A stretch of DNA of 64,000 bases from Buchnera aphidicola (Mindarus abietinus) (GTDB lineage: Bacteria; Pseudomonadota; Gammaproteobacteria; Enterobacterales; Enterobacteriaceae). A program made the translations under genes and the position numbers. Below are positions 2,124 through 55,169 of the stretch, in pieces. Position 1 is the first letter of the stretch. Each line of letters begins with the position of its first letter. A model generated the notes under the pieces. It saw only the letters and a list, made by a program, of their open reading frames with translations, searched no databases and was not told where the DNA came from. The stretch spans positions 361,171-425,170 of the forward strand of contig NZ_OZ060398.1 in assembly GCF_964059085.1 (NCBI RefSeq), in the 5' to 3' direction.

Positions 2124-2878
2124 ATGAAAAAAAAAAATATAGAATTTTTTATGAAAAAGAAATAAAAAGAAAACAAAATATACATTTGACCAATAACAAT
2201 CTGCATTATTTCAAAAATGTTTTAAGAGTTAAAATAAATGAAAAAATTGAAGTATTTAATAATACAAATCATGTTTTTTTAGGAAAAATTACTCTTATTA
2301 AGAAAAATTTAATTCAAATATTAATAGAAAAAAAACTTAAAAAAAATAAAGAATCCTCTCTAAAAATACATTTTGCCCCTATAATGCTAAATCAAAAAAA
2401 AATGAATTTTATTATTCAAAAATCTACTGAATTGGGAGTGCATTCAATTACACCATTATTGCAAAAAAATAAGTTTTCTACTGAAATAAATAGTTCTTCT
2501 TTATTATCTCAATATAATCGATGGAAAAATATAGCAATATCTGCTTGCCAACAATGTGAAAGAAATAAAATTCCAATTATTAATTATCCTGAATATATGT
2601 ATTCATGGTGTAGTAAATTACCTAATAATGAATTAAAAATAATTTTTGATCCTTATACAAAAAAAACAATAAATTCTTTAACGCCTATTCAAAAAAAAAT
2701 AAATGTGATAATCGGAGGTGAATCAGGGTTTTCTATTATGGAAATTAATAATTTTAAAAAAAAATATAATTTTAAAAATATTTCATTAGGAAAAAGAATA
2801 CTACGTGCTGAAACTAGCTCTATAGCTGCGATATCTATCTTATTGTATAAATATGGAGAATTAGATTTAACTATCTAA
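2124..2878 (+). CDS. rsmE: 16S rRNA m3U1498 methyltransferase, frameshifted in a poly(A) tract
   Basis: RsmE is a SPOUT methyltransferase that methylates U1498 of 16S rRNA. From 2138 onward the reading gives a full RsmE body: YRIFYEKEI at the N-terminus, then IIQKSTELGVHSITPL, ISACQQCERNKIP, VIIGGESGF and RILRAETSSIAAI. The only plausible ATG (2124) lies in another frame, separated from this body by an A11 run at 2127-2137. One extra A gives a continuous 251-residue protein against 243 in E. coli. Without slippage the only in-frame start would be TTG at 2186, which cuts off the conserved N-terminal domain. The 3' end overlaps convergent fau by 4 bases. The gene is probably functional through slippage, though early decay or a homopolymer sequencing error is possible. 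Confidence 0.85.
2127..2137 (+). repeat. A11 slippery tract in rsmE
   Basis: Eleven A residues directly follow the ATG of rsmE. As written, the frame from the ATG ends after 12 codons. A12 or A9 joins the ATG to the conserved RsmE frame. Tracts of this length are expected to cause RNA polymerase slippage. Confidence 0.85.
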
Positions 2879-3459
2879 AAAAAATTTTTTTTCCAAAACC
2901 AAATTTTTTTAGGTGTAATAATATAAGGCAAGGGAACATCCCAGGGGTTAATTTTTATATCTTTTACTAACTGAAAATCATATGCTATACCTATAGGTAT
3001 AATTTTTTTTTTCGAATCTCTTAACAGAAAATCATAAAAACCACATCCCATTCCTAATCGATACCCTTCAAAATTAAAAGCTACTAATGGAACTATAATG
3101 ATTTCCAGCTCATGAATAAAAAATTTTTTTTTATTTTTCTTTATAGGTTCTAAAATATTAAATTTATTTAATTTTAAAATAGTATTTTTTTTATATTCTA
3201 AAAAAAATACTGTTTTTTTAGAAAAAGAATCTATTTTAGGTAAAAAAACTCGAGCATCTTTTTTCCATAAAAGATTAATTAAAGGAAAAGTATTAATTTC
3301 TCCGTCAAATGAAGAAAATAGAGCTATATTTTTAGCATCTTTTATTTTTTTTAAATTATACGCTAAGTTAGCTACTTTTATAGCAGCATTATTTTTTTTA
3401 CTTTCAGATAGTTCTTTTCTTTTAATTCTAATATTTTTTCGAATTATTTGATTATTCAT
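2875..3459 (-). CDS. fau: 5-formyltetrahydrofolate cyclo-ligase
   Basis: The product converts 5-formyltetrahydrofolate to 5,10-methenyltetrahydrofolate with ATP, recycling a one-carbon folate. At 194 residues it is close to E. coli YgfA (182). The N-terminal R-x-x-R-K-x-L segment, the central FDGEINTFPL region and the C-terminal RLGMGCGFYD motif near residue 138, which contributes to nucleotide and substrate binding, are all present. In E. coli the 6S RNA gene ssrS precedes this gene; no 6S-like sequence is visible here at 3460-3644. It converges with rsmE and lies downstream of rpiA on the same strand. The older symbol is ygfA. Confidence 0.93.
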   Translation of the reverse strand: MNNQIIRKNIRIKRKELSESKKNNAAIKVANLAYNLKKIKDAKNIALFSSFDGEINTFPLINLLWKKDARVFLPKIDSFSKKTVFFLEYKKNTILKLNKFNILEPIKKNKKKFFIHELEIIIVPLVAFNFEGYRLGMGCGFYDFLLRDSKKKIIPIGIAYDFQLVKDIKINPWDVPLPYIITPKKIWFWKKNFF

Positions 3460-3492
3460 AAAAAGACTCTATTTTTTAAATATTTAATTATT

Positions 3493-3511
3493 TTAATATC
3501 TTAGATATTAA
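3493..3511. repeat. 19-base palindrome between rpiA and fau
   Basis: TTAATATCT (3493-3501) and AGATATTAA (3503-3511) form a perfect 9-bp inverted repeat with one central base. It lies 34 bases upstream of the fau start codon on the minus strand. It could be a weak transcription stop for rpiA or a protein site. No regulator can be assigned, and A+T-rich palindromes also arise by chance. Confidence 0.3.
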
Positions 3512-3644
3512 TGTTTCTTTATATAATTTAAAAATTGAAATTAATAAAAACTATACTTTTAGAAAAAATGAAATATTACTCATTATAAAATTTTTCCTAA
3601 AAAAAATTCTTAAAAAAAATAAAAAATTATTAATTTAATAATGC

Positions 3645-4313
3645 TTATTTTATTTTATTAAATAAAGTTTTAACTCCTGATTGAGTTCCGATAATTACAA
3701 TATCTGGTTTTATTTTTGAAAATAATCCTACCGTTACTACTCCAGGAAAAGAATTAATTTTTTCTTCAATAAAAATAGGATCTAAAATTTTGAATTTATA
3801 AACATCTAAAATAATATTTCCATTATCCGTAATTAAATTTTTCCTTAATTTTGGCTCTCCTCCTAACTTAATTATTTGATTTTTAATGTACGAGTAAGAC
3901 ATAGGTATTATTTCAATTGGAAGTGGAAAATTTCCCAATATTTTTACTTGTTTAGATTCATCTATTATGCAAATAAATTGAGTTGCTGCAGCAGCTATTA
4001 TTTTTTCTTTTGTTAATGCTGCGCCTCCTCCTTTAATCATTTCCATTTTATTATTTATTTCATCAGCACCATCTACATATATAATAGGAGAACAAACTTT
4101 ATTTAAATCCAAAATTTTTAATCCATACTTTTTAATCTGTTCTGATGATGTACTAGAACTTGAAATTACTCCTGATATTTTTTCTTTAATAAAACTTAAA
4201 GCTTTTATAAAGTAAGAAACTGTAGAACCAGTTCCTATTCCAACAATAGAGTTATCTTTAATATATTTTATCGCTTCTAAAGCAGCTTTTTTTTTTAATT
4301 CATCTATTTTCAT
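3645..4313 (-). CDS. rpiA: Ribose-5-phosphate isomerase A
   Basis: RpiA interconverts ribose-5-phosphate and ribulose-5-phosphate in the pentose phosphate pathway. The 222-residue protein (E. coli 219) contains VGIGTGSTVSYFI near residue 25, IYVDGADEIN near 80 with the catalytic aspartates, KGGGAALTKEKI near 95 and TDNGNIILDV near 165. The start is ATG at 4313, because MKIDELKKKA aligns with the E. coli N-terminus. The open frame continues upstream to 4445 only because it runs through a tRNA gene. The gene begins 59 bases after the last tRNA-Gln with no hairpin between, so it may be read from the tRNA promoter. Confidence 0.96.
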   Translation of the reverse strand: MKIDELKKKAALEAIKYIKDNSIVGIGTGSTVSYFIKALSFIKEKISGVISSSSTSSEQIKKYGLKILDLNKVCSPIIYVDGADEINNKMEMIKGGGAALTKEKIIAAAATQFICIIDESKQVKILGNFPLPIEIIPMSYSYIKNQIIKLGGEPKLRKNLITDNGNIILDVYKFKILDPIFIEEKINSFPGVVTVGLFSKIKPDIVIIGTQSGVKTLFNKIK

Positions 4314-4372
4314 TATTTTTAAAACCTTATTTAAAAATAAAAAGTTAAAAAAATTATCTTTTATTATTTTTT

Positions 4373-4444
4373 CTGGGGTACCTGGATTCGAACCAGGGAA
4401 TGCCGGTATCAAAAACCGGTGCCTTTCCACTTGGCTATACCCCA
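4373..4444 (-). tRNA. tRNA-Gln (anticodon UUG), copy 2
   Basis: On the minus strand the acceptor TGGGGTA pairs with TACCCCA, with discriminator G at 4373. The anticodon arm CCGGT-TTTTGAT-ACCGG gives UUG for CAA/CAG. CCA is not encoded. The sequence appears identical base for base to the copy at 4492-4563. The Met-Leu-Gln-Gln order matches the start of the E. coli metT-leuW-glnU-glnW cluster. Confidence 0.95.
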
Positions 4445-4491
4445 TTTGATTTTAAAGAAATGAAACAAAAATTCAAATTAGATTGTTTTTT

Positions 4492-4563
4492 CTGGGGTAC
4501 CTGGATTCGAACCAGGGAATGCCGGTATCAAAAACCGGTGCCTTTCCACTTGGCTATACCCCA
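4492..4563 (-). tRNA. tRNA-Gln (anticodon UUG), copy 1
   Basis: This is an identical copy of the neighbouring tRNA-Gln, with the same acceptor, the same TTTTGAT anticodon loop and discriminator G at 4492. The copies are 47 bases apart and share a few flanking bases (TTTTTTCT on the 3' side, TTT on the 5' side). The pair corresponds in position to E. coli glnU and glnW. Confidence 0.95.
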
Positions 4564-4596
4564 TTTTTAAATTTTTTCTTATACTTATTATCTTTA

Positions 4597-4678
4597 TACG
4601 GAAGGCGAGACTTGAACTCGCAAACTTTTCAGTGCCAGATCCTAAATCTGGTGCGTCTACCTATTTCGCCACTTCCGC
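4597..4678 (-). tRNA. tRNA-Leu (anticodon UAG)
   Basis: On the minus strand the gene begins GCGGAAG and ends CTTCCGT plus discriminator A. The first acceptor pair is therefore G1-U72 rather than the G1-C72 of E. coli leuW. The anticodon loop TTTAGGA gives UAG, and a class II variable arm is present. CCA is not encoded. It is the second gene of the Met-Leu-Gln-Gln cluster. Confidence 0.94.
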
Positions 4679-4706
4679 AAAAAATTATATTATTTTAATA
4701 TTAATA

Positions 4707-4784
4707 TGGTGGCTACGATGGGACTTGAACCCATGACCCCAGCGTTATGAGTGCTGTGCTCTAACCAATCTGAGCTACATAGCC
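4707..4784 (-). tRNA. tRNA-Met, elongator (anticodon CAU)
   Basis: On the minus strand GGCTATG pairs with CGTAGCC, and the gene ends ACCA, so CCA is encoded (4707-4709). The anticodon loop is CTCATAA. The sequence follows E. coli metT closely and lacks initiator features such as the C1-A72 mismatch. The anticodon stem CAGCA/CGCTG leaves an A-C mismatch at the pair next to the loop (31-39). It is the first gene of the tRNA cluster. Confidence 0.94.
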
Positions 4785-4999
4785 TATTCTACAAATAAAA
4801 TAAGAATTTTTTTAACAAAAAAAGTTTATAAATTTTTTCATTAAAAATGATTAAAGAAATTAATAATTTTTATCATATATATAAAAATATATACATTATG
4901 TGATATAATATATCATGAAATTTTATTAAAATAAACCTATAAAAAAATATTACAAATTTCAGATACTGCTAATCGTAATTTAAAAAATAAAAAATAAAA

Positions 5000-6661
5000 A
5001 TGAAAAAAAATCCTCTTAAAAAAAAACCTCGTTTAAATTTCATTCAAAAAATTGTGTTACAAGATTTAAAAAATAAAAAATGCAATAATATACAAACTAG
5101 ATTTCCTCCTGAACCTAACGGATTTTTACATATAGGTCATGCTAAATCTATGCACTTAAACTTTGGAATTGCTAAAAAATATAATGGAATATGTAATTTA
5201 CGATTTGATGATACAAATCCTAAAAAAGAAAATTCTCAATATATTGATATTATCAAATCCAATATTAAATGGCTAGGTTTTAAATGGAAAAAAATATATT
5301 TTACTTCTCAAAAATTTGAAAAAATATACCAATATGCTTTAATATTAATTAAAAAAAATTTAGCCTATGTTGATCAATTAAGTAAAGATGACATAAAAAA
5401 ATATAGAGGAACATTACAACAACCTGGAAAAAATAGTCCTTTTCGAAATCAAACTATTGAAGAAAATTTAATTCTTTTCGAAAAAATGAAATCCGGGCAT
5501 TTTTCAGAAGGATCAGCTTGTTTGAGAGCAAAAATTGATATGAAATCTCCTTTTATTATAATGAGAGATCCTGTTTTATATCGAATAATGTTTGTTAAAC
5601 ATCACCAAACGAAAAAAAAATGGTGTATTTACCCTTTATATGATTTTTCACATTGTATTTCTGATGCTCTGGAAGGAGTTACTCATTCTTTATGTACTCT
5701 TGAATTTCAAGAAAATAGAAAACTATATAACTGGATTTTAGAAAATATAGAATCTATAAATAAACCTATGCAATATGAATATTCAAGATTGAATTTAGAG
5801 TATTCTATTCTTTCTAAAAGAAAATTATCGGTACTAGTTCAAAAAAAAATTGTTTCTGGTTGGGATGATCCTAGAATGCCTACTATTTCAGGATTAAAGA
5901 AACGAGGTTTTACTCCAAATTCTATTCAAGATTTTTGTAGAAGAATAGGTTTTACTAAAAAAGAACATTATATAGAATTAGATTTATTAGAAAATTGTAT
6001 TAGAAATGATTTAAATAAAAATACTCCTAGAACAATGGCGATTATTAATCCTTTAAAATTAATCATATCTAATATGTCAGAAGATTATAAAGAAAATATT
6101 TTTATTCCTTATCATCCTAAAGAAAGCTCAATGGGGATAAATAGAATTACTTTAAGTAAAGAAATATATATAGACCAATCAGATTTTTCCGAAAACTCTA
6201 TTCCTGGATACAAACGATTGGTCCTTGGGAAAACAGTAAAATTAAGATATAGTTTTGTTATCAAAGCAATAGAAATTAAAAAAGATAAAAATAAAAAAAT
6301 TGATACTGTAATTTGTATTTACAAAAAAAATAAATTACAAAATAAAGAAAAAGTAGAAAAATTTAATGGAATTATTCATTGGATTTCTAAAGAAGATATT
6401 TTTCCAGCAAAATTTTTTTTATATGATCGTATATTTAATGTTAAATTTCCTGAACTAAAAAAAGATTTTTTAAATTATATAAATAATAAATCATTAATTA
6501 TTAAAAATGGATTTATTAACAAAAATATTTTAAAAAACAAAAATTTTAATACTTATCAATTTGAAAGAGAAGGATATTTTTTTCTTAATGAAAATAAGAT
6601 AAATAGTAAAAAATTAATTTTTAATAGAATTGTTTCTTTAAAAAAAAAGTGGAAAAAATAG
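5000..6661 (+). CDS. glnS: Glutaminyl-tRNA synthetase
   Basis: GlnRS charges tRNA-Gln with glutamine. The protein has 553 residues (E. coli 554) and aligns throughout. FPPEPNGFLHIGHAKS near residue 36 holds the class I HIGH motif, LRFDDTNP follows, and LSKRKL near residue 272 is the KMSKS equivalent. The C-terminal beta-barrel anticodon-binding region is present but lysine-rich. The start ATG aligns with a lysine-rich N-terminal extension before NFIQKIV. It is divergent from the tRNA cluster that carries its two tRNA-Gln substrates, with 215 bases between them. Confidence 0.97.
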   Translation: MKKNPLKKKPRLNFIQKIVLQDLKNKKCNNIQTRFPPEPNGFLHIGHAKSMHLNFGIAKKYNGICNLRFDDTNPKKENSQYIDIIKSNIKWLGFKWKKIYFTSQKFEKIYQYALILIKKNLAYVDQLSKDDIKKYRGTLQQPGKNSPFRNQTIEENLILFEKMKSGHFSEGSACLRAKIDMKSPFIIMRDPVLYRIMFVKHHQTKKKWCIYPLYDFSHCISDALEGVTHSLCTLEFQENRKLYNWILENIESINKPMQYEYSRLNLEYSILSKRKLSVLVQKKIVSGWDDPRMPTISGLKKRGFTPNSIQDFCRRIGFTKKEHYIELDLLENCIRNDLNKNTPRTMAIINPLKLIISNMSEDYKENIFIPYHPKESSMGINRITLSKEIYIDQSDFSENSIPGYKRLVLGKTVKLRYSFVIKAIEIKKDKNKKIDTVICIYKKNKLQNKEKVEKFNGIIHWISKEDIFPAKFFLYDRIFNVKFPELKKDFLNYINNKSLIIKNGFINKNILKNKNFNTYQFEREGYFFLNENKINSKKLIFNRIVSLKKKWKK

Positions 6662-6687
6662 TTTTTTAAAAAAATTAAATTTTTTAA

Positions 6688-8436
<1,749 letters not shown>

Positions 8437-8475
8437 AAAATTTTTAAATGTTAACTTTTTTAAAAAAGGAACAAA

Positions 8476-9744
8476 ATGTATAAAATAAATAAAACTATCT
8501 GCCGAGAAATACTAGATTCTAGAGGATTTCCAACTATCGAATCAGAAATACATTTAGAAGGAGGATCAATTGGAATTGCTTCCGTTCCTTCAGGTGCATC
8601 AACAGGTTCAAAGGAAGCTGTAGAATTACGAGATAATGATAAAAAATATTTTTTAGGAAAAGGTGTAAAGAAGGCAGTATTAATAGGAAATACAATAATT
8701 TCTGAAAAAATTTATAAAAAAGATGCTAGAGAACAGGAAGCGATTGATGATTTTATGATTAAATTAGATGGTACTGATAATAAATCTAATTTAGGCGCTA
8801 ATACAATTCTAGCTATTTCTTTAGCAACGGCTAAAGCAGTAGCTTTACAAAAAAAAATTCCTTTATACAAATATATTTCCGAACTAAATAATACTCCTAA
8901 TCAATTTTCCATGCCTATTCCTATGATAAATATAATTAATGGAGGAAAGCACGCTAATAATAATATTGATATACAAGAATTTATGATACAACCAATAAAA
9001 GCTAAAAATATTAAACATGCTATTCAAATAGGCGCTGAAATTTTTCATTATTTGGGAGGAATATTAAAATTAAAATCACTTAATACTTCTGTAGGAGATG
9101 AAGGAGGATATGCTCCAAATTTAAATTCTAATGAAGAAGCCTTAAATATTATTCAACATGCAGTAAGTGCAGCAGGATATAAAATTGGAAAGGATATAAC
9201 TATAGCAATTGATTGTGCCGCTTCCGAATTTTATAATAAAACCTCTCAAAAATATTGTTTTAAGAAAGAAAAAAAAGAATTTAATTCTTATGAATTTACA
9301 AATTATTTAAAAAAATTAACCGAAATATATCCTATTCTCTCTATTGAAGATGGGCAAGATGAAAATGATTGGTTAGGGTTTAAATATCAAACCGAACAAC
9401 TAGGACAAAAAATACAACTAGTAGGAGATGATTTATTTGTAACTAACAAAAAAATTCTAAAAAAAGGAATTGAAAAAAAAGTTGCAAACGCTATTTTGAT
9501 TAAACTAAATCAAATTGGAACATTATCTGAAACATTGAAAACAATACAATTAGCTAAAAAATCAAATTATAAAGTAATTATTTCTCATCGTTCAGGAGAA
9601 ACAGAAGATACTACAATTGCTGATTTATGTGTAGGTACATCATCGGGACAAATTAAAACAGGTTCTATGTGTCGTTCCGAAAGAACTTGTAAATATAATC
9701 GTCTTATTAGAATTGAAGAAGAAATAAAAAATAATATTTTATAA
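8476..9744 (+). CDS. eno: Enolase
   Basis: Enolase converts 2-phosphoglycerate to phosphoenolpyruvate. The 422-residue protein has all main active-site elements: PSGASTGS near residue 38, [12 protein letters not shown] near 152, VGDEGG near 206, SIEDG near 286, [10 protein letters not shown] near 311, ILIKLNQIG near 338 and SHRSGETED near 366. It ends shortly after LIRIEEE, about 10 residues earlier than E. coli enolase (432), so the short C-terminal tail is lost. An AAGGA Shine-Dalgarno element precedes the ATG. A strong hairpin terminator follows at 9767-9808, so pyrG-eno looks like a transcription unit. Confidence 0.97.
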
Positions 9745-9766
9745 AAAATTATGAATATTAAGTTAA

Positions 9767-10549: not shown

Positions 10550-10558
10550 TCATTTTTT

Positions 10559-14349: not shown

Positions 14350-15734
14350 TTAATTACTATTTTTTTTAAACCAAGACAATTCTTTTGATAAAGAAACTAC
14401 TTTTCCAAGAATTAATAATGTTGGTCGTTTCATTAAACACGATAACTTTTTAAGATTTTTAAAAGTATCAATAATAGTATTCTGTTCTGATGTAGTTCCT
14501 TTTTCAATTAAAGCCATAGGCATATCTAAAGGATAGTTATTAAATTTTAATTTATCAAAAATATAAGTAGACTGTAATCTAGCCATATAAATAACTAAAG
14601 TATAATTTTTACATTTTGATATAAAAGACCAATCTTGACTATTTTTTTCTTTTTCTTTGTTAGATCCAGTAATAAATATTATTCCACTTGAATAATTTCG
14701 ATGTGTTAATGGAATTCCTGCATATGCAGAAACACCAGTTGCTGCTGTAATACCAGGTACAACTTGAAAATTGATTCCAAATTTTTTAGCTATTTCTAAT
14801 TCTTCCCCACCCCTACCAAAAATAAAAGAATCCCCTCCTTTTAACCGAACAACTTTGTTTCCGTTTCGAGCCATATTAATTAACATTGAATTAATATTTT
14901 TTTGACTAACACATAATTTATTAGCTTTTTTCCCTACATAAATTTTCTTAGCATCTTTACGAACTAATGATAAAATATCCGAACTAACTAAACTATCATA
15001 TAAAATTACATCAGCTTGTTGTATAACTTGCAAACCTCTTAAAGTTAATAAACCGCTATCTCCTGGACCTGCTCCTACCAAAAAAATTTCCCCTTTGAAA
15101 GATTTTTTTTGTTTTATTTCAGTATTCAATGTTTTAATAGCTTTTTTTAAATTTCCATTTAAAACATGACTAACAAATATTCCATTAAAAACTTTCTCCC
15201 AAAAGTAACGACGATGAGTATTTTTTTTAAATTTTAATTTAACATGACTTCTCCACCTTTCTGCTAACAAAGCAGAATTTCCCAAGTTCATTGGAAGAAT
15301 AGATTCTATTCGTTCCTTAATCATTCTAGTTAAAACTGGTGCGGTTCCACCAGAAGAAACTGCTACAGTTATAGGAAATCGATCTACTATAGAAGGAAAA
15401 ATAAAAGAACATTTTGAACGATCATCGATAACATTAATTAGTATCCTTTTTCGTTTTGCTTCTTGATAAATTAAAGAATTTAATATACTGTCATTTGTTG
15501 CAACAATAATTAAAAACACTTTATTTAGCTGATTTAAAAAAAATTCCGTATCTATCCAATTAATTTTTTTTTTTTATATACTTCGATTAAATCAGAAGAA
15601 ATATTTCTAGATACAACCATTATATTCGAAGTCATATTAAGTAAAAAAAAAATTTTTCTAACAGCAATTTTCCCTGCTCCTATGAATAATACTTTTTTAT
15701 TTTTTAAATTAATAAAACAAGGGAAGTAGTTCAC
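14350..15734 (-). CDS. cysG: Siroheme synthase, frameshifted in a poly(A) tract
   Basis: CysG turns uroporphyrinogen III into siroheme, the cofactor of sulfite reductase CysI. The dehydrogenase/chelatase half begins with NYFPCFINLKNKKVLFIGAG and continues through SSDLIEVYKKKK, where an A12 run (15564-15575 on the minus strand) breaks the frame. The other frame resumes as INWIDTEFFLNQLNKVFLII and runs through VAVSSGGTAPV and the methyltransferase half (VGAGPGDSGLLTLRG, RLKGGDSFIFGRGGEE). One extra A gives 461 residues against 457 in E. coli. The start chosen is GTG at 15734, 4 bases after GAGGA; TTG at 15755 is the alternative. If slippage fails, only the methyltransferase half could be made, from GTG at 15519. 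Homopolymer error is the alternative explanation. Confidence 0.87.
15564..15575 (-). repeat. A12 slippery tract in cysG
   Basis: Twelve T residues on the plus strand are an A12 run on the coding strand. Upstream codons end in stop four codons past the run as written. A13 or A10 joins the N-terminal Rossmann segment to the rest of CysG without gap or overlap relative to the E. coli alignment. Confidence 0.85.
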
Positions 15735-20246: not shown

Positions 20247-22775
20247 TTAAAAATTTTTAAAAAAAATTTTTTTTATTCCTTTTATTTTTTTAAATATAAA
20301 AGATAAAGAACTAATATTGAAATATTTTTTTAAAAATAATCTAAATGTTATTTTTTTTTTAATTTTTATTTCTTTTAATTTTGCATTAGCTAAATCAATA
20401 ACTTTTATTGGGAATCCAGAAAGAACAGCAACCAATATTCCATAACTTTTATTTATAAATCCTTGTTCTAGCTTATATAAAAAAGAAATTTTTCCATCAT
20501 ATTCAACTGTCGATAAATAAACATTTTTTATATTTTTATTTTTTTTTTCTAATTTTGTTAATTCAAAATAATGTGTAGAAAACAAAGTTATAGATTGTAT
20601 ATATTTAACTAAATATAAAGAAACTGACCAAGCTAAAGCTAATCCATCATTAATAGATGTTCCTCTTCCTATTTCATCTATCAAAACTAAACTATTAGAA
20701 GTAGCATTATTTAATATATTGGCAGTTTCTATCATTTCCACCATAAAAGACGACTTACCTCCCGATAAATCATCAGAAGAACCAATTCTTGTAAAAATTT
20801 GATCTATATTTCCAATAACAGCAGTCTTTGCAGGAACAAAACTTCCTATCCATGCCATAATTACAATTAATCCTATTTGTCTCATATATGTACTTTTACC
20901 ACCCATATTTGGACCAGTAATAATTAACATTCTATTTTTTCTAGATAAATTAACAGAATTAGGAACAAAAGAATGAGTTAATATTGATTCAATAACTGGA
21001 TGACGACTATCATTTAAGCGAATTTCTGTTTTGTTTGTTAGATAAGGGCATACATATTTTAATTTTACAGCTCTTTCTGCTAAATTCGATAAAACATCAA
21101 GTTCAGCAATTGCTTTTGCACTAATTTTTAAGAAAGGTATATAAAAATTTAATTTTTCTAATAATTTATAATATAAATAATTTTCTAACTCTAAACTTTT
21201 AAACTTTGATGATATAATTTCTTTTTCAAATTTTTTTAGTTCTAATGTTGTATATCTATTATATAATTTTAATGTTTGTATTTTTATATATTTTTCAGGT
21301 ATTAATTTTTTATACTTTTTGTTTATTTGAATATAATAACCAATAATTCTATTAAAACCTACTTTTAAAGAATCTATTTTTAATATTTTTTTTTCAAGAG
21401 TTTCAAATTTTTGAATAACAGATAATGAATTTTTTGAAATGTTCCTTAGATGATCTAATTTTCTATTATATCCTTTTGCTATTACATTTCCATTTTTTAT
21501 AGACATCGGAGAATCTGGATTAATAGAGGAATTTAATAAAGAAATAATTTCCTTGTTATTACCTAACCTTTTAACAATTCTTTTTATATTTTCTCCCTTA
21601 ATTTTTACTAATACTTTTTTAATTTTAATAAATTCTAGTAAAGTTAATTTAATTTTAATTATATCTATTGGATTTGCTTTCAACGTAACCACTCGAGAAC
21701 AAATTCTTTCTAAATCACTAATCTTTCTAAAAATAAATTTCAACTCTATATATTTTTCTTGTAATTCTTTTATGCTATTTTGCCTATTTTTAATAATTTT
21801 AATATCTCTAATAGGTGCATGTATCCAACGTTTTAACATTCTTACACCCATAGAAGTTGTGCATCTATTCAAAACATAAGACAAAGTATTTTTATAACCT
21901 CCTAATACATTTTTTGTTAATTCTAAATGAATTCTAGATACTTTATCTAATAAAATATATTTTTTAGGAACATTTATTTTAATTGATAAAATATTTCTTA
22001 AAAGAATTTTTTGTACAGATTTGATATATTGTAATAAACAACCAGCCGATCCTAATCCTAAATGATCTTTTTTTAAACCAAACCCTTCTAAATTTTGAGT
22101 ATTAAAGTGTAAGATAAGTTGGCGATAAGCACTCTCCAACTCAAATTCTGCTATAGAACGATATTCAATTAAAGTATTATTAGTTTTAATCGTATTAATA
22201 TCTTTAAAATTATCACTACACAATAATTCTACTGGATTAGTTCTGTATAATTCAGATAAAAATGATTCTAAATTTTCATGTTCTGATACATAAAAATCTC
22301 CTGAAGAAATATCTACATAAGAATATCCGAATTTATTTTCATTTTTATAAACTGCTGCTAGAATATTATCTACATCATTATTTAAAAAAAAATCTTCAAC
22401 AACTGTCCCAGGGGTAATTACTTGTATAACTTCTCGATTAATTAATTTATTTTTACAAGATAATTTATTTTTTACTTGTTCACATACAGCAATAGATTTT
22501 CCTAAATTTAATAATTTTTTCCAGTATCTCTCTGCAGTATGCACAGGTATACCTGCCATAGGTACTTTTTTTCCTGCTGAATATCCTCTATTTGTTAACA
22601 CTATTTTTAGTATATCGGAGACTGTGATAGCATCTTTATAAAATAATTCATAAAAATCTCCCATTCTAAAAAAAAGAACAAAATCAGGATATTTTTTTTT
22701 TATTGATAAATATTGTCTAATTATCGGAGTATGTAAATTTAAATTATTTTCATATTTATTTGAAATATCTTTCAA
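20247..22775 (-). CDS. mutS: DNA mismatch repair protein MutS
   Basis: MutS binds mismatches and starts methyl-directed repair. The 842-residue protein (E. coli 853) keeps the mismatch-reading Phe-x-Glu motif in FFRMGDFYELF near residue 36. Connector and lever domains follow, and the ATPase carries GPNMGGKSTYMRQ near residue 614 (Walker A), SSDDLSGGKSSFMVEM and LVLIDEIGRGTS near 693 (Walker B). The C-terminal tetramerisation tail is replaced by a short lysine-rich end. The gene is divergent from polA. Given the eroded PolA proofreading site, an intact mismatch-binding protein is worth noting. Confidence 0.96.
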   Translation of the reverse strand: MKDISNKYENNLNLHTPIIRQYLSIKKKYPDFVLFFRMGDFYELFYKDAITVSDILKIVLTNRGYSAGKKVPMAGIPVHTAERYWKKLLNLGKSIAVCEQVKNKLSCKNKLINREVIQVITPGTVVEDFFLNNDVDNILAAVYKNENKFGYSYVDISSGDFYVSEHENLESFLSELYRTNPVELLCSDNFKDINTIKTNNTLIEYRSIAEFELESAYRQLILHFNTQNLEGFGLKKDHLGLGSAGCLLQYIKSVQKILLRNILSIKINVPKKYILLDKVSRIHLELTKNVLGGYKNTLSYVLNRCTTSMGVRMLKRWIHAPIRDIKIIKNRQNSIKELQEKYIELKFIFRKISDLERICSRVVTLKANPIDIIKIKLTLLEFIKIKKVLVKIKGENIKRIVKRLGNNKEIISLLNSSINPDSPMSIKNGNVIAKGYNRKLDHLRNISKNSLSVIQKFETLEKKILKIDSLKVGFNRIIGYYIQINKKYKKLIPEKYIKIQTLKLYNRYTTLELKKFEKEIISSKFKSLELENYLYYKLLEKLNFYIPFLKISAKAIAELDVLSNLAERAVKLKYVCPYLTNKTEIRLNDSRHPVIESILTHSFVPNSVNLSRKNRMLIITGPNMGGKSTYMRQIGLIVIMAWIGSFVPAKTAVIGNIDQIFTRIGSSDDLSGGKSSFMVEMIETANILNNATSNSLVLIDEIGRGTSINDGLALAWSVSLYLVKYIQSITLFSTHYFELTKLEKKNKNIKNVYLSTVEYDGKISFLYKLEQGFINKSYGILVAVLSGFPIKVIDLANAKLKEIKIKKKITFRLFLKKYFNISSLSFIFKKIKGIKKIFFKNF

Positions 22776-23180
22776 TTTTTTTTTTTATTTTTATTATTCA
22801 CTTTTTATCTCTATAAGAAAATATTTTTCAAATTTTATTAAAAAAATTTAGCATAAATAACTTAAAATCAAATTATAAATTAATAAAAAAAATTTTTCAT
22901 GTTTTTAAAGTTATTAATTGTTAATTAAATTAAATATTTAAGTTTAATAAACTAAAAATTATATAAAATTAAAAAAAAATTTAAAAAAAACATAAAAAAT
23001 AAGAAAACTTTATGTATTAACAAAAATTAAAGTCTTAAAAATATTTAAAATTTGAAAAAAATTAACAAAATTAATTTATTAATACACTTATTAAATATAA
23101 TAAACGATTAATCCATAATTATTATTTAAATTAATATGTTAAACTTAATTAATTTTAAAAATTTTAAAATTTTAATTTTC
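22776..23180. other. 405-base divergent intergenic region between mutS and polA
   Basis: The region is nearly all A and T, with many A runs. I found no tRNA, no gene remnant and no convincing hairpin. It should contain both the mutS and polA promoters, but many TATAAT-like hexamers occur and none can be chosen. The polA frame stays open back to 23136, without homology. Confidence 0.5.
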
Positions 23181-25865
23181 ATGAACATAAAAAATAAAAC
23201 TTCAAATAAATCGAATCCTATTATATTAATCGATGGAAATTTGTATCTTTATCGATTTTATTATGCCCTTCCCAAGCTAAAAAATAATTTTAATGAACCT
23301 TCTAATGCAATATATGGAATGATTAATATGTTGCTAAATTTATTAAAAAAATATACACCAAAAAAAATGATAGTTGTATTTGATTCATTTCAAAAAAATT
23401 TTAGACATTCTATATTTAAAGAATATAAAGTCAAAAGAATATCTATGCCTGATAATTTAAAAGTACAAATTATTCCGTTAAAATCAGCTATTAAAATGCT
23501 AGGTATACCTACCTTGTGTATACCTACAATAGAAGCAGATGATATTATAGGAACAATTGCTTCAAAAGAATCTAAAAATGGAAATAAAGTACTAATTAAA
23601 AGCTATGACAAAGATATGATTCAATTAGTAGAAAATAATATTAATATCATCCATAATGTAAATGGAAAAGTTATTGGTCCTTATGAAATAAAAAAAAAAT
23701 ATGGTTTTTCTTCGAAACAAATTGTTGATTTTTTAAGTTTAATAGGGGATAAATCTGATTCTATTCCAGGAGTTCCCGGAATAGGTAACAAAACAGCTTT
23801 AATACTTATAAAAAATTATGGATCAATTGAATCCATCTATAAGAATATAAAAAATATAAGCTCTTTAATTATACGGAATTCAAAAAAAATTGTCTCTCTT
23901 TTAATTGAACACAAAAAATCAATATTTTTATTTAAGCAATTAATTACCTTAAAATTAGATATTAAACTAAATATAGACGAAAAATTAGAGTTTTCAAACC
24001 CTAAAATTTTAAATTTATGTATTTTTTTTAAATATTATAACATAAATACATGGAGTGAAAAAATTAAAGATTTTGATTTCTTTTATAAAAAAAAAATACC
24101 AAAAAAAAAAATGAATAATTTTACTATTTTTTCTGAAAATTTAGAAAAGAATATAAATTTTTTTCTAAAAAAAATAAAAGAATCTTCTATGTTTTCTTTT
24201 TTTTTACATTTAGATACGTCTTCAAAAAAAATAAAGGAGTTAAAAGGAGTAGCTTTTTCATTATCCTCAAAAAATACAATTTATTTTCCTTTTAATAATA
24301 AAACGTCTATTAATAATTTTAAAGCTATTTTTGAAAATAAAAAAAATAAAAAAATTAGTAAAAATTTAAAAGAAGATAGCCAAATTCTAGAAAAAAATAA
24401 CATTGTTTTATCTGGAAACCAATATGATATTTTTATTGAATCATATTTATTAGATAGTCAGTTTGGAGAAAAATATAGTCTAGAAGAATTAAAAGAAAAA
24501 TGGATAAACAACAAAAAAAAATTTACTAATATTAAAAATAAAAAAAATCATATATTAAATGAAAATGATGTATTAATCCAAGCAGAAACTATATTTTTAT
24601 TGCATGAAAATTTATGGTTTCGTTTAAAAAAAAATAAAGAAAATATTTTTATATTAAATAATATTGATTTTCCTTTAATTAAAGTAATAGAAAAAATAGA
24701 AAAAAATGGCGTTTTAATTGATAAATTCATCTTAGAAAAACAATCTAAGAAAAACATTTTGAAATTAAATAACCTTAAAAAAATAGCCTATGAATTAGCT
24801 AATACGTCTTTTAACTTACTATCGAATAAACAATTACAACCAATTTTATTCAAAGATATTGAATTTAAAAAAATTAAAAAAAATAAAAATGGAAATTTTT
24901 CTACTTCTAAATATGTATTAAAAGAACTTTCTTTAACAAATCCTTTGGCAAAAATTATTTTGAATTACCGAAAATTAAGAAAGTTACAATCTAATTACTT
25001 GGATACTTTACCAAATATGATTAATCCAGTAAATAATAGAATTCATACTTCTTATCATCAAACTTTAACTGTAACAGGAAGATTATCTTCTTCAAATCCT
25101 AACTTACAAAATATTCCAATTCGCACGAAAGAAGGAAAGAGAATTAGGAAATCTTTTATTGCTCCTAAAAATACAATAATTGCTGCTATAGATTATTCCC
25201 AAATAGAATTAAGAATTCTAGCTCATTTATCAAATGATCCTTATTTAATTAATGCTTTTAAAAAAAATAAAGATATTCATCTTTTAACGGCATCAGAAAT
25301 TTTTAATACTTCTATTTTAAATATTACCAATGAACAAAGACAAAAAGCAAAGGTCATTAACTTTAGTTTAATTTACGGAATGACTGCTTTTGGTTTATCT
25401 AAAAAAATTAATGTTAATGTAGAAGATGCTCAAAAATATATTGATATTTTTTTTAAAAAATACAATGAAGTTTGTAACTATACGAAAAAAATTCAAAAAT
25501 TTGCTCTTAAAAAAGGTTTTGTTTCGACTATTTTAGGAAGAAAATTATATTTATCAAACATTAAATCAAAAAATATATATCTTAGACAATCTGCTGAACG
25601 TTCTTGCATTAATGCACCTATGCAAGGTACTGCTGCTGATATTATTAAAAAATCAATGATTGAAGTAAATAATTTTTTAACTAAAAAAAATTTTTTTAGC
25701 AAAATACTGATGCAAATACACGATGAATTAATCTTTGAAATTAAAGAAAAAGAACAGTCCACAATACTTCCTGAACTAATATATATTATGGAAAATATTA
25801 TTTCCTTAAAGGTTCCATTAAAAGTATCCACTAAGTTAGGAAAAAATTGGGGCGAAATAAATTAG
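23181..25865 (+). CDS. polA: DNA polymerase I, proofreading site apparently lost
   Basis: PolA fills gaps and removes RNA primers. The 894-residue protein (E. coli 928) has the 5' nuclease domain (ILIDGNLYLYRFYYALP near residue 16, IEADDIIGT, LIGDKSDSIPGVPGIG near 190). The polymerase domain is intact: DYSQIELRILAHLS motif A near 670, RQKAKVINFSLIYGMTAFG motif B and LMQIHDELIFE motif C near 845. The middle 3'-5' exonuclease domain is shortened, and FDTETDS of E. coli is LHLDTSS here near residue 343, so both acidic metal ligands are missing. ATG 23181 is preferred because the family begins a few residues before the ILIDG segment; ATG 23136 would add 15 unmatched residues. Confidence 0.95.
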   Translation: MNIKNKTSNKSNPIILIDGNLYLYRFYYALPKLKNNFNEPSNAIYGMINMLLNLLKKYTPKKMIVVFDSFQKNFRHSIFKEYKVKRISMPDNLKVQIIPLKSAIKMLGIPTLCIPTIEADDIIGTIASKESKNGNKVLIKSYDKDMIQLVENNINIIHNVNGKVIGPYEIKKKYGFSSKQIVDFLSLIGDKSDSIPGVPGIGNKTALILIKNYGSIESIYKNIKNISSLIIRNSKKIVSLLIEHKKSIFLFKQLITLKLDIKLNIDEKLEFSNPKILNLCIFFKYYNINTWSEKIKDFDFFYKKKIPKKKMNNFTIFSENLEKNINFFLKKIKESSMFSFFLHLDTSSKKIKELKGVAFSLSSKNTIYFPFNNKTSINNFKAIFENKKNKKISKNLKEDSQILEKNNIVLSGNQYDIFIESYLLDSQFGEKYSLEELKEKWINNKKKFTNIKNKKNHILNENDVLIQAETIFLLHENLWFRLKKNKENIFILNNIDFPLIKVIEKIEKNGVLIDKFILEKQSKKNILKLNNLKKIAYELANTSFNLLSNKQLQPILFKDIEFKKIKKNKNGNFSTSKYVLKELSLTNPLAKIILNYRKLRKLQSNYLDTLPNMINPVNNRIHTSYHQTLTVTGRLSSSNPNLQNIPIRTKEGKRIRKSFIAPKNTIIAAIDYSQIELRILAHLSNDPYLINAFKKNKDIHLLTASEIFNTSILNITNEQRQKAKVINFSLIYGMTAFGLSKKINVNVEDAQKYIDIFFKKYNEVCNYTKKIQKFALKKGFVSTILGRKLYLSNIKSKNIYLRQSAERSCINAPMQGTAADIIKKSMIEVNNFLTKKNFFSKILMQIHDELIFEIKEKEQSTILPELIYIMENIISLKVPLKVSTKLGKNWGEIN

Positions 25866-36966: not shown

Positions 36967-37424
36967 ATGATAATAATTAATTTAGAAAATACTACTAAAA
37001 AATATGAATACAGTCCCAAAAAAATAGAATTTATTAATTGGGTAAAAAAAGTACCTCACATAAAAAAAAAAATTTTATAACAATAAGAATTGTTGATTCT
37101 CAAGAAATAAAAAAACTAAATTTTTTTTATAGAAACCAAAAAAAACCAACAAATATTCTTTCATTTCCTTATAATCTATATTTAAACTCAAATAATATCC
37201 TTTTAGGAGACTTAGTAATTTGTAGTAAAATCATAAAAAAAGAGGCCAAAAAACAAAAAAAAAATATAAAAGGACATTGGGCTCACATATTTATACACGG
37301 AGTATTGCATTTATTAGGATATAATCATATTAAAAAAAAAGAAACAAAAAAAATGGAATTATTAGAATGTACAATACTTAAAAAGTTAGGTTTTAAAAAT
37401 CCATATATAAGTAATATGATTTAA
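36967..37424 (+). CDS. ybeY: Endoribonuclease YbeY, frameshifted in a poly(A) tract
   Basis: YbeY is a zinc-dependent endoribonuclease for 16S rRNA 3' maturation and ribosome quality control. ATG 36967 begins MIIINLENTTKKYEYS, passes FINWVKKVPHIKKK and then goes out of frame in an A11 run (37062-37072). The other frame gives NFITIRIVDSQE, KPTNILSFPY and the zinc site HIFIHGVLHLLGYNH (H-x3-H-x5-H). One extra A gives 152 residues; E. coli has 155. A TTG at 37038 would otherwise be the only start for the catalytic part and removes the N-terminal strand. It lies between miaB and corC as in E. coli. Slippage rescue is favoured; sequencing undercount is possible. Confidence 0.87.
37062..37072 (+). 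repeat. A11 slippery tract in ybeY
   Basis: Eleven A residues inside the ybeY reading frame. As written, the ATG frame ends at 37078-37080. A12 or A9 joins HIKKK to NFITIRIVDS, matching the spacing of E. coli YbeY. Confidence 0.85.
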
Positions 37425-41140: not shown

Positions 41141-42136
41141 ATGTTTTCTATAAAAAAAATTTACTTAAACAAAATTAATTTTATTAGTAAAAAAAATTTT
41201 TTTTATTATTATTTTTTAATTGGTAATGAATTCAGTTTGTTGGATGAAGCTAAAGAAAAAATATTTAAAATATCTAAAGAAAAGAATTTTCTTGAAAAAA
41301 AAATATTTTTTATTTCATCAAAATTTAACTGGGATGAAGTATTTCTTTTATTAAAAAATGAAAATATTTTTAATATTAAAACCATAATAATATTAATTAT
41401 TAAAGATGAAAAAAAAATATTTACATTAGATAAAAATTTAAAAAAAATATTTACTTTATTAACTAAAAAAAATATTATTATTATTCAATCTAAAAATTTT
41501 TCTATTAGTAGAAATAATCGAATTCCAAGTAATAAAAAAAAAATAACAGGAATTTTAATATTTTGTTATTTTTTGAATAAATCTGATAAAAAGTTATGGA
41601 TAAAAGAAAAGTTACGAATTAATAACATAAATTTTTCTAAAAATATAAAAAAAAATTATGAAAATAATTTATGTTTATTAAAAAAGAAAATAGATAATTC
41701 AAAATTTTTTAATTTAAAAAATAAAAAAGATTCATTTGACAAAATCAATAGTTTACTAATTAATCAAAAAAAAATTAACCCTATAGAATTAAATAATGCT
41801 ATTCTCAATGGAAATAAAAAAAAATCTATACAAATAATAAATAAATTATTATCTGAAGAATATAGTCCTATTTTACTAATTAGATCTTTTCAAAAAGATT
41901 TATTAATTTTAGTGAAATTTTATTTCCAAGATAAAAAAATCACATCTTTTTTAAAAAAAGAAAATATAAATAGCCATCGCTTAATATATTTTTCTAATTA
42001 TTTAAAAAAAAATGATATTAAAAAATTATATTTTTCAATAAAGTTACTTACAGAAATAGAAATAGATATTAAAAATAATCATAAAAAATTTTTTATATGG
42101 AGTAAATTACAATACTTGTCTATTTTTTTATCGTAG
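41141..42136 (+). CDS. holA: DNA polymerase III delta subunit
   Basis: HolA is the delta subunit of the clamp loader that opens the beta clamp. The sequence has diverged strongly and is very rich in lysine, isoleucine and asparagine. The assignment rests on length (331 residues, E. coli 343), position after leuS, and family features: FFYYYFLIGNEFSLLDEAK near residue 20 corresponds to the LLxGxxxxLxxE region. The C-terminal helical collar has NPIELNNAILNGNKKKSIQIINKLL and a K-D-I/L-L segment. No catalytic motif is expected, since delta does not hydrolyse ATP. Confidence 0.82.
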   Translation: MFSIKKIYLNKINFISKKNFFYYYFLIGNEFSLLDEAKEKIFKISKEKNFLEKKIFFISSKFNWDEVFLLLKNENIFNIKTIIILIIKDEKKIFTLDKNLKKIFTLLTKKNIIIIQSKNFSISRNNRIPSNKKKITGILIFCYFLNKSDKKLWIKEKLRINNINFSKNIKKNYENNLCLLKKKIDNSKFFNLKNKKDSFDKINSLLINQKKINPIELNNAILNGNKKKSIQIINKLLSEEYSPILLIRSFQKDLLILVKFYFQDKKITSFLKKENINSHRLIYFSNYLKKNDIKKLYFSIKLLTEIEIDIKNNHKKFFIWSKLQYLSIFLS

Positions 42137-42355: not shown

Positions 42356-42583
42356 ATGAAAATAATTAAAAAAAAATTAGATTTAAGAAATTTACGTTGT
42401 CCAGAAACTATTATGTTATTAAGAAAAAAAGCTAGAAATATGAATTTAGGAGAATATTTATTAGTAATTTCTAATGATTTTTCTTCAAAAAGAGATATTC
42501 CAAAATTTTGTCGATTTATGCAGTATAAATTAATAAAAATAGAAGTAAAAAATTCTGTTGACTATCATCTTTTAAAAAAATAA
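42356..42583 (+). CDS. tusA: Sulfur carrier protein TusA
   Basis: TusA accepts sulfur from cysteine desulfurase and passes it on for 2-thiouridine in the wobble position of Lys, Glu and Gln tRNAs. The 75-residue protein (E. coli 81) has the signature LDLRNLRCPETIMLLRK, with the sulfur-carrying cysteine near residue 16, and RDIPKFCRFMQYKL near 43. A short AAGGA element precedes the ATG. It converges with asd, with 18 bases between them. The glutamine tRNA UUG of this window is a likely final target of the pathway. Confidence 0.93.
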   Translation: MKIIKKKLDLRNLRCPETIMLLRKKARNMNLGEYLLVISNDFSSKRDIPKFCRFMQYKLIKIEVKNSVDYHLLKK

Positions 42584-48380: not shown

Positions 48381-48412
48381 ACTAAAAAAAATATTTAAAA
48401 AAAAAGGTTGAT

Positions 48413-51637: not shown

Positions 51638-51654
51638 TTTTTTAACAAAATACT

Positions 51655-54600
51655 ATGAAAAAAAATAAAGAAATAAAAGAAATATTTGATTTTTCATTAA
51701 CAGGAAAACATGTAATTGAAGCATCAGCTGGAACAGGAAAAACTTTTTTTATAGTTTTGACATATATTAGACTGATATTAGGAATTAATACAAAAAAAAA
51801 TATGCAACCTATACCAGTTAAAAAGATTCTTGTACTAACATTCAATAAATCAGCAAAGGAAGAAATTTTTAAAAGAATAAAAAATACTATTCAAAAATTA
51901 AAAAAATTTTTCTTTAAAAAAAAAATTAAAGATAAAAATATAGATTTTATATTAAAAAATATTAAAAATTTAAAATTAACATATATTCTACTTTTAAAAG
52001 TAGAATTTGATTTAGAACAAGCAAAAATTTTTACTATAGATAGCTTCTTTTTTAAAACATTAGACTATTATACTTTGAATTTAAATAATCTAAACAAAAT
52101 AAAAAAAAATGAAAATGAAAAAAATATATATTTACAAAGTACTATAGATTTTTGGAGAAAAAAATGTTTTTTTTTTCCAAAAAATTTATTAAATATTATT
52201 TATAAAAGATGGAAAAATCCTTTAAATTTATTTAAAGAGATAGAATCTTGGATAAATTATCAAAATAACAATCCTTATCTTAAAATAAAAAAAAAATATT
52301 GTTTAATCACATTACATAAAAAAAATATTAAAAAAATTAATTTTTATAAAAAATCTTGGTTAGGAATTAGTAAAAAAATATTTAATTTAATAGATAATTT
52401 TGATATAAATAAAAGAATTTTTAATAAAAAAAATAAAGAAAGATGGATAAACTTAATAAACAAATGGGCAAAAGAAAAAACAATTGATTATTTTATTCCT
52501 AAAGAATTATCTTATTTTAAAAAAAAAATAAAAAAGGTAAAAAATGAAAAAAATAAAGAATTATATAATTTTTTTGTTTTTACAGAATTTTTTTTAAAAC
52601 AAAATTTTTCGATAGAAAAAAAATTTATTCTTTTTTCGATTCAAAAAATTATATACTACGCTAACTTAAAAAAAAAAAAAATGGATATTTAGAATACTCT
52701 GATGTTTCAAATTTACTTCTTAACACATTAAAAAAAAATAAAAAAAATTTTTCGAAAGAAATAAGTAAAAATTTTACTGCTGTATTAATTGATGAATTTC
52801 AAGATATTAATCTTCAACAATATAAAATTATAAAAAAAATATTCTATAAAGAAAAAAAAATATTATTATTGTTAATTGGAGATCCAAAACAATCTATTTA
52901 TAATTTTAGAGGAGCCAATATATTTTCTTACTTTCAATCAAAATCAGAAATTAAATCACATTTTTTCCTTAAAAAAAATTGGAGATCTACACCTGATATA
53001 GTAAATAATATAAATTTATTTTTTTCTAGAATTAAAAATTCATTTTTAAATTCTAAAATAAAATTTATTCCTTCTACTTCTTCAAAAAAAAATAAATTTA
53101 ATTATTTTAAAATTGATGAAATTATTCAACCTTCTTTTTCTATATTTGTTAATTCAAAAGAAATTATTTCTAAGAAAAGTTATGAAGAATGGATTTCCAA
53201 TGAATGTGCTAAAAGCATATCTTATTGGTTAATGAAAGGAAATTCTAAAGAAGCTTTGATATCTATTAAAAATAAAAAAAAATATATTTCAGCAAAAGAT
53301 ATTGTTGTAATAGTTAAAAATAAAAATGAAGCTAATTATATACAAAATGCTTTAAAAAGTAATAAGATTTCATCTATTTATCTATCAAACAAAAAAAACG
53401 TATTTGATACATTAGAAGCAAAAGAAATATTTTGGATACTCAGTGCCATATTAGATTCAAAAAACGAAAAAAAAATTAAGAGAGCACTCTGCACTAATTT
53501 ATTAGAAAATAATTCTAATCAAATAAATAAACTTTGCTTAAATTTAAAAAATTGGTCACTAATATTAAAAAAATTTGAATATTTTTATGAAATTTGGACA
53601 AAATTAGGAATTTTCTCCTTAATAAGATATTTAATAAAAATTAAAAAAACAAAAGTTGATTTTAATAAACAAAAAGAAAATACATTTAATGTTCATAATT
53701 TTTTATATTTAGGAGAACTAATAGATAAAAAATATTTTTTATTAAATGAAAAAAAAATACTTCTTTTTTGGTTAGAAGAAAAAATTAATAATACTGAAGA
53801 CTATTTTGTAATTAATAATTTTATACATGTTCCAGATAATAATAATAGTATAAAAATTATTTCTGTACATAAATCTAAAGGATTAGAATTTCCAATAGTA
53901 TGGATTCCTTTTATTATGAATTATACGAAAAGAACAATAGGATTTTATCCTAATAAAAAAAATCAACTTCTAATAAATTTAGAAAAAAATTCAATAAATT
54001 CTAAATTAGTTGATAAAGAAAGACTTTCAGAAGATATAAGGTTATTATATGTTTCTCTAACAAGATCTATACTACACTGTAGTATAGGTATAGGTAGAAT
54101 TCAGAAGAAAAAAAGTAAAAAATACAATACTTTTTCTGATGTACATGAAAGTGCTTTTGGATATCTTCTACAACAAGGAAAAAAATGTAATTTTTCTACT
54201 TTTAAAGAAAAATTAAAAGAAATTAAAAAATATAAAAATATCAAATTTTTTTCAAATTTTAAAAAAAAATCTTTTCAAAAAAAATCTAAGATTAATACTC
54301 CGATAAGCCTTGCATTATTTAATAGAAAAATTACAAATTATTGGGATATAACAAGTTTTTCTAAATTAAAAAAAGAAAACTTAACTACGAAAAAAAATGA
54401 ACAAAAAAATTTAAATAATAAAAATATTATTTTTACTGAAAATACGTTAAACCCTTATTCTTTTCCAAGGGGGAGGGGGTTTGGATCTATGCTTCATAAA
54501 ATCTTAAAAAAATGTAAATTTTCTTATAAAATAGAAGAAAAATACATTGAAAAAGAAATTAAATCAGTAAAATTAAATAAAGAATGGATCCCCATAGTAA

Positions 54601-55169
54601 AAAACTGGATATATCAAATATTTCATAAAAATATTAATAAAAATAATTTATTATTATCAAATTTAAAAAAAAACGAATACATAAAAGAATTAAAATTCTA
54701 CTTTCCTATTAAAAAAATAATAAATGAACATAAATTTAATGAAATAATTAAATTTTGTAGTTTAAAAAATCAAAAAATTCCTTTTTTTAATTTTAAAAAC
54801 AAAAAAGGAATATTAACAGGATTTGTTGATCTCGTTATTTTTTCAAATAAAAAATATTATATTTTAGAGTATAAATCTAATTGGCTTGGAAATGATAACA
54901 CTTTTTATTCTAAAAAAAATATAAAAAAAGAAATAATTAAACACAGATATGACATACAATCTTTATTGTATATAATTGCAGTTAATAGATATCTAAGTAA
55001 TAAAATAAAAAAATATGATTTTAATAAAAATTTTGGAGGTTTTTATTTTTTATTTATTAGAGGAATGTATCTTGAAAAAAATCAAAATAACAAAAACGAC
55101 GGAATTTATCATTTTCTTCCTGAAAAAAAATACATAGATGAATTAGATAATTTTTTTAAAGGAATATAA
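51655..55169 (+). CDS. recB: Exonuclease V (RecBCD) beta subunit, frameshifted in a poly(A) tract
   Basis: RecB is the helicase-nuclease subunit of RecBCD. The first frame (51655-52692) has the Walker A motif VIEASAGTGKTFF and the UvrD-like KKILVLTFNKSAKEEI. It leaves frame in an A14 run (52668-52681) and stops at 52692. The other frame continues at once with GYLEYSDVSNLL, the helicase motifs VLIDEFQDIN, LLIGDPKQSIYNFRGA and SVHKSKGLEFPIVW, and a C-terminal nuclease (GFVDLVIF, LEYKSNWLG). One extra A gives 1171 residues; E. coli has 1180. The nuclease Asp1080 equivalent is Glu. Unslipped product would lack most of the helicase and all of the nuclease. It lies between recC and recD as expected. 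Confidence 0.88.
52668..52681 (+). repeat. A14 slippery tract in recB
   Basis: Fourteen consecutive A residues, the longest homopolymer I noticed in a gene here. As written the frame reads ANLKKKKMDI and stops. A15 or A12 continues into NGYLEYSDV and the rest of RecB. Confidence 0.87.

Follow-up and report, generated by a model that had tools for sequence, protein, structure and literature searches.

Frame breaks at poly(A) runs of five genes

The window analysed here is a stretch of 64,000 nucleotides (nt) of the genome of Buchnera aphidicola (Mindarus abietinus), with a G+C content of 22%, from a genome totalling 551,523 bases in 4 contigs. Five genes on this window, namely rsmE, cysG, ybeY, recB and mutS, were each found to be broken once at a coding-strand run of eleven to fourteen adenines (A11 to A14), with all five breaks lying in one common phase. 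The genome holding the window (G000) was compared with the genomes G001 and G002, which belong to its GTDB genus and possess matching regions, with approximately 98-99% of the bases of the window being placed on each of them. A second genus (g90) was represented by 36 genomes, which were examined for ybeY, and a comparison sample of 160 kilobases (kb) was taken from elsewhere in G000, giving 224 kb when combined with the window. The features concerned, together with two control runs, are as follows.

2124..2137, plus strand: start ATG of rsmE with an A11 run directly after it (2127-2137), out of frame with the body
2138..2878, plus strand: rsmE body (PUA_4 and Methyltrans_RNA); first in-frame start a TTG at codon +16, absent from G001 and G002
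14350..15563, minus strand: cysG body
15564..15575, minus strand: A12 run of cysG (T12 on the plus strand); G001 and G002 are in frame, with the run interrupted or shorter
15576..15734, minus strand: N-terminal part of cysG, with a GTG start assigned by eye
20247..22775, minus strand: mutS body with five MutS domains; possible start TTG at 22775, immediately after the run
22776..22801, minus strand: mutS start GTG (22799-22801), four codons and the A11 run (T11 at 22776-22786), out of frame with the body as read by eye
24101..24111, plus strand: A11 run of polA, a control, in frame, with an A10 run nearby at 24087-24096
36967..37061, plus strand: ybeY N-terminal part
37062..37072, plus strand: A11 run of ybeY, out of frame in 3/3 genomes of its own genus and in 26/36 of g90
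37073..37424, plus strand: ybeY body (YbeY domain)
51655..52667, plus strand: recB N-terminal part (UvrD-helicase)
52668..52681, plus strand: A14 run of recB; G001 and G002 are in frame
52682..55169, plus strand: recB body; the 62 codons after the run hold no ATG, GTG or TTG, yet it aligns to its relatives from the run onward
59527..59538, plus strand: A12 run of ribH, likewise a control; G000, G001 and G002 are all in frame

The breaks of rsmE, cysG, ybeY and recB had been listed in a preliminary description of this DNA, and all four were confirmed at these positions and in one phase; the list was nevertheless incomplete, as the fifth case, mutS, had been missed. The start-to-stop spans of rsmE, ybeY and recB leave a remainder of 2 modulo 3. 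The same one-base deficit separates the frames of the two halves in cysG, ybeY and recB, and the rsmE break was read from the ATG at 2124 against the frame of the body. For mutS, the start codon of the relatives (the GTG at 22799-22801) was found by eye to lie in one frame and the body in another, in the same phase as the other four; the relatives themselves have a GTG or ATG start, and their shorter or interrupted run leaves the frame intact (also by eye). Each of the five genes contains its single frame break inside the long coding-strand A run with the remainder open to the stop codon, and no second disabling change was seen in any of them. An automated scan for split-gene pairs found neither rsmE, ybeY nor mutS, due to their N-terminal parts being short, and these three were found by hand.

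Run length and reading frame

The reading frame at A runs was judged with an automatic score based on the codon position of differences to the relatives, which can be applied only where a run is flanked by coding evidence on either side. Among the 88 A9 runs of the window, 49 were scorable, with 48 identified as in frame and one as out of frame, the latter (at 52730) being caused by the recB break, which lies 49 bases earlier. All scorable A10 runs (21 of 31) were in frame; inspection by eye of the ten remaining found six in frame, two on the non-coding strand of a gene and two intergenic, so that 0/27 coding-strand A10 runs in the window were out of frame. At lengths of at least 11, five of the seven coding runs were out of frame, three of them as scored (cysG, ybeY and recB) and two as judged by eye (rsmE and mutS), with those of polA and ribH being in frame. 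Comparison of A10 runs with runs of at least 11 by the same score gave p = 0.004 (Fisher), and p = 2e-4 once rsmE and mutS were added, an addition made on one side only.

The 160 kb sample contained eight runs of at least 11, one of which was judged to be non-coding; three of the other seven were out of frame and four in frame (frames and gene names by eye), the former affecting prmC, ung and the last ~10 codons of lspA. Shorter runs of the sample were all in frame where they could be scored (7/39 A10 runs and 32/152 A9 runs). Over the combined 224 kb, 8/14 coding runs of at least 11 were out of frame, and all eight breaks share one phase (two-sided sign test p = 0.008). The same-sign pattern pointed out in the preliminary description is therefore real (8/8), though deletion-biased replication slippage would give the same result. 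The high density of breaks that it also remarked upon corresponds to 5/7 coding runs of at least 11 in the window versus 3/7 in the 160 kb elsewhere, and because the window was chosen for this feature the density within it cannot serve as an unbiased test.

Breaks shared across the genus

Four genes, ybeY, rsmE, prmC and ung, were out of frame in 3/3 genomes of the genus (G000, G001 and G002), so that their breaks are not sequencing errors. The ATG of rsmE is followed by A11 in G000, A10 in G001 and A11 in G002, all three being out of frame. The break of prmC lies at an A11 run in all three genomes and in the same phase (G000:C1 165247-165257, L176, outside the window), and those of ung, again in the same phase, lie at A13, A10 and A13 (G000:C1 179069-179081 on L176, L186 and L187-L188). 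When prmC and ung were checked in 16 selected small genomes of other genera, prmC was found as an open frame of 276-297 codons in 16/16 and ung as an open frame of 216-247 codons in 15/16, with genome G198 giving no ung match. These long open frames suggest that the prmC and ung breaks are specific to the genus of G000.

By these comparisons the breaks fall into two classes, those of ybeY and rsmE (with prmC and ung) being genus-wide and those of cysG, recB and mutS occurring only in G000. The treatment of rsmE, cysG, ybeY and recB as a single class in the preliminary description was thus not upheld.

Homopolymer undercounting during sequencing or assembly, raised there as an alternative under which the genes would simply be intact, would account for the one-directional phase, for the restriction of breaks to the longest runs and for cysG, recB and mutS being broken in the assembly of G000 but not in G001 and G002. 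It does not account for the recurrence of the ybeY break in two other genomes of the genus and in 26/36 of g90, nor for rsmE, prmC and ung being broken in 3/3 genomes, and the very same assembly also contains six coding runs of at least 11 with an intact frame, namely those of polA (A11) and ribH (A12) plus four located outside the window. Undercounting is ruled out for ybeY and rsmE by the same break in other genomes, while for cysG, recB and mutS, which are in frame in G001 and G002, it may still apply; as an explanation of the whole pattern it is considered unlikely.

Conservation of the ybeY frameshift in a second genus

Among the g90 genomes, ybeY was out of frame in 26/36 and in frame in 10/36, amounting, with the genus of G000, to 29/39 out-of-frame genomes across two genera. 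Of the 26, 23 match the gene of the window in the site and phase of the break and have a run of exactly A10, and one further genome has A9 in that phase; the remaining two, G419 (A9) and G437 (A13), lie in the other out-of-frame phase. In-frame g90 genomes were found to have different or shorter runs, with A11 in none.

The ratio of non-synonymous to synonymous substitution rates (dN/dS) was determined on either side of the break in 12 pairs of out-of-frame genomes (11 from g90 and G000-G001), the widest of which overlap on the tree. For the N-terminal part it was 0.30 in its own frame, compared with 0.59 and 0.91 when read in the two alternative frames, and for the body it was 0.24; the N-terminal parts of in-frame genomes gave 0.43 (5 pairs). 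In G432 and G433 there is no ATG at the start, and the N-terminal part was cut by length. By these values the N-terminal part and the body of ybeY both evolve under purifying selection despite the break.

Homopolymer frameshifts in Buchnera are commonly taken as recent inactivations, as stated in the available sections of PMC3164680, and the breaks of cysG, recB and mutS could be new, so that the genes described here might likewise be dead or dying through ongoing pseudogene decay. However, the five genes of the window are open to their stops with no second disabling change and no clearly faster evolution, and the dN/dS of 0.24-0.30 on either side of the ybeY break is not what decay would leave, which makes this explanation rather improbable.

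A further alternative is that the body of each gene is translated from a start of its own, with the N-terminal piece being dispensable. Potential starts of this kind were identified: the TTG immediately after the mutS run keeps all five MutS domains, the cysG body has an in-frame GTG at +15, the rsmE body of G000 has its TTG at +16, and an in-frame TTG lies ahead of the run in ybeY of G000 and G001. Against this, the rsmE TTG is missing from G001 and G002, where the first in-frame starts of the body lie at +82 and +30, recB has no start for 62 codons, and in 24/26 out-of-frame g90 genomes the ybeY body is preceded by no ATG, GTG or TTG in its own frame (one is present in G424 and G350), while the ybeY N-terminal part is itself under selection. 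Internal initiation is very unlikely as a general explanation. In view of the lack of a body-frame start in 24/26 genomes, a YbeY protein with its conserved N-terminus needs both frames.

Ribosomal -1 frameshifting on A_AAA_AAA, instead of or alongside transcriptional slippage, would also join the two frames, as this heptamer is contained in every run and the phase observed is the one that a -1 shift corrects. Programmed -1 frameshifting combines a slippery heptamer with a stimulator, and at ybeY the heptamer is present and no stimulator was found: Shine-Dalgarno-like 4-mers occurred within 22 bases upstream in 0/26 genomes, and the 60 bases downstream gave a mean folding z of -0.2 against shuffled sequences, with one sequence at -3.5. 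A site of 7 bases, moreover, leaves unexplained why the breaks are in runs of 9 to 14. The likelihood of a ribosomal shift is accordingly judged to be low.

Inheritance of the out-of-frame state was reconstructed on a tree built from four proteins (1,652 columns), several nodes of which have low support. The ancestor of g90 was reconstructed as out of frame both by parsimony (8 changes versus 10) and by a two-state model (probability 0.95-1.0), with equal-cost parsimony giving six returns to frame and two shifts to the other phase. At 19 further ybeY loci, 15 were identified by eye as in frame, including that of the Buchnera of Pemphigus obesinymphae, the one named record returned for a ybeY DNA pattern (some of these genomes may not be Buchnera), and G181, G119 and G020 have a same-phase break at a different run, which in G020 is an A10 run located earlier; ybeY of G176 was placed in neither frame class. 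In the list given in PMC4389277, ybeY is also a frameshifted gene of Blochmannia turneri. No paper title on a ybeY frameshift in Buchnera was present among the literature matches listed, a search aimed at it giving papers on Blochmannia and Mollicutes, and since supplements and most subscription papers fell outside this search ybeY may already be listed there.

Breaks found in a single genome

In G001 and G002, cysG and recB are in frame, and mutS likewise by eye. At the site of the cysG run the relatives have A7GA5 or AGAGA9, and G000 has A12. Lineage-specific residues (G000 : G001) were counted as 25:17 for cysG, 31:44 for mutS and 88:93 for recB, with 817:842 for 40 intact genes. From these counts the three genes do not appear to be clearly faster evolving in this lineage, and a recent break, rescue or a miscall would fit alike.

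The TTG that follows the run offers mutS a start with no loss of a MutS domain, and its break may therefore be harmless. Given that start, and with the only DNA_mis_repair match of the genome lying in a 590-codon open frame, a mutator effect, with a broken mutS leading to more breaks in G000, would be a guess. A pattern search of the genome contigs with the RecB body returned 262 matches, none of them a relative.

Proposed mechanism

Loss of a base in DNA that is tolerated through RNA polymerase slippage on poly(A) is probably the best explanation of the pattern. In this AT-rich genome, substitutions would lengthen intragenic A runs with the frame unchanged, as illustrated by the interrupted or shorter runs of the relatives at the cysG site; a run of ~10 or more would then lose one base by replication slippage, placing the gene out of frame, and RNA polymerase would slip on the same run, returning a share of transcripts to frame. 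A broken gene may therefore be tolerated, in some cases for a long time, with part of its product being full-length. In transcripts of Buchnera, 151/157 insertions were located in homopolymers, versus 15 or 16 deletions there, according to the part of PMC5574713 that was available, and such an insertion bias of RNA polymerase slippage would rescue the phase seen here. For other frameshifted symbiont genes, corrected transcripts of 12 to 50% are given in the accessible text of a review (PMC5009743). Slippage rescue, which the preliminary description had put forward, is partly supported and is preferred here, the wider conservation of the ybeY break having escaped that description; the breaks of cysG, recB and mutS are compatible with the same process.

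Several observations weigh against rescue by RNA polymerase slippage. The common phase is equally expected from deletion-biased DNA slippage alone, and the present data do not separate the two. The sign is also not absolute, as the opposite out-of-frame phase occurs for rsmE of G001 and for ybeY of G002, G419 and G437. In PMC5574713, no case was found of a frame being restored by a transcription error. At ybeY, the out-of-frame g90 ancestor ties when a return to frame is given double cost and loses at triple, and none of the 72 lysine codons of the runs is AAG versus 2.4 expected (P = 0.09, relatedness uncorrected), so that run purity is not beyond expectation. The breaks of cysG, recB and mutS are at most recent, mutation and miscall are not separated for them, and they could be assembly errors.

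A more far-reaching proposal is that slippage dependence is the normal state of ybeY, and this is advanced only tentatively as doubtful but possible. The out-of-frame run would have been inherited from the ancestor of the large Buchnera genus, perhaps shared with the Mindarus symbionts, and kept possibly to set a low YbeY dose, with other symbionts having broken ybeY at other A runs; deletion-prone slippage of DNA and insertion-prone slippage of RNA polymerase would be complementary, which would explain the common phase.

Relation to known frameshifted genes

Wernegreen, Kauppinen and Degnan (2010, Molecular Biology and Evolution) reportedly described ancient frameshifts that are maintained in Blochmannia. 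Such long-kept Blochmannia frameshifts are also stated in the accessible part of PMC3017870. The likeness to that Blochmannia work is the persistence of the same frameshift across species with no gene decay, the present case differing in that it concerns Buchnera, ybeY, two genera and 29/39 genomes. The same frameshift across species was found here for ybeY, rsmE, prmC and ung, but not for cysG, recB and mutS.

The mechanism is not new, as the preliminary description had noted, slippage rescue having been reported in the Buchnera of Rhopalosiphum padi (Tamas 2008, as cited in the section of PMC3164680 that was available). The genes described here resemble the rescued Buchnera and Blochmannia genes of that study in having a single frameshift at a long coding-strand A run within an otherwise intact gene of the same or a similar symbiont; they differ in that those genes are rescued by slippage, while the present ones are known from their DNA sequence. 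In its accessible part PMC3164680 also gives 1 to 18 homopolymeric frameshifts per complete Buchnera genome, with repeated independent cases such as murF, and defines pseudogenes as truncations below 80% of length, unlike the start-proximal breaks of rsmE and mutS, which this criterion may leave out. For the Buchnera of Myzus persicae, gene models coded in two frames across poly(A) were merged, both sides being conserved (PMC3890641, available section); the two-frame coding across poly(A) is the same, although the genes are not named in that section. The phenomenon is already known in these symbionts, and it is its persistence at ybeY that is the notable part.

If borne out by transcripts, the endoribonuclease gene ybeY would be read through a frame break in 26/36 and 3/3 genomes of two Buchnera genera, and the 39 genomes would provide a natural series, in and out of frame, for measuring what slippage-dependent expression costs or what use it has. 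In such genomes, working genes can be split or truncated by automatic annotation, and breaks seen in a single assembly need raw reads before being counted as gene loss.

Other observations

Leucine genes within the initial 3,000 bases of contig 2 of G000 have 89.8% identity to the Buchnera plasmid from Mindarus japonicus, 83.6% to that of the Buchnera of Mindarus keteleerifoliae and 71-74% to the ten next records listed, which suggests a Buchnera of a Mindarus-like aphid. Unlike contig 2, contig 3 (L222, 2488 bases) gave no match in a search of a plasmid collection at the distant setting.

Additional candidate breaks were noted in the related genomes. In G001, a short gene appears to lose its frame at a start-proximal A13 run (L178 ~9678-9690, minus strand), its G000 copy being in frame (by eye). 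In G002, an A11 run divides the counterpart of window positions 41141-42136 (L038 ~1253-2265). In G091, polA (L061 ~436-1314) has an open frame of 293 codons that ends near the A10 and A11 site of the window polA, and the counterpart of window positions 60864-61982 (L062 ~14553-15713) consists of two open frames.

Within the window, two adjacent genes for glutamine transfer RNA (tRNA-Gln) with the identical anticodon TTG lie on the minus strand at 4373-4563. A short conserved open frame at 42356-42580, TusA-like by eye, is shorter than the length cut of the open reading frame list.

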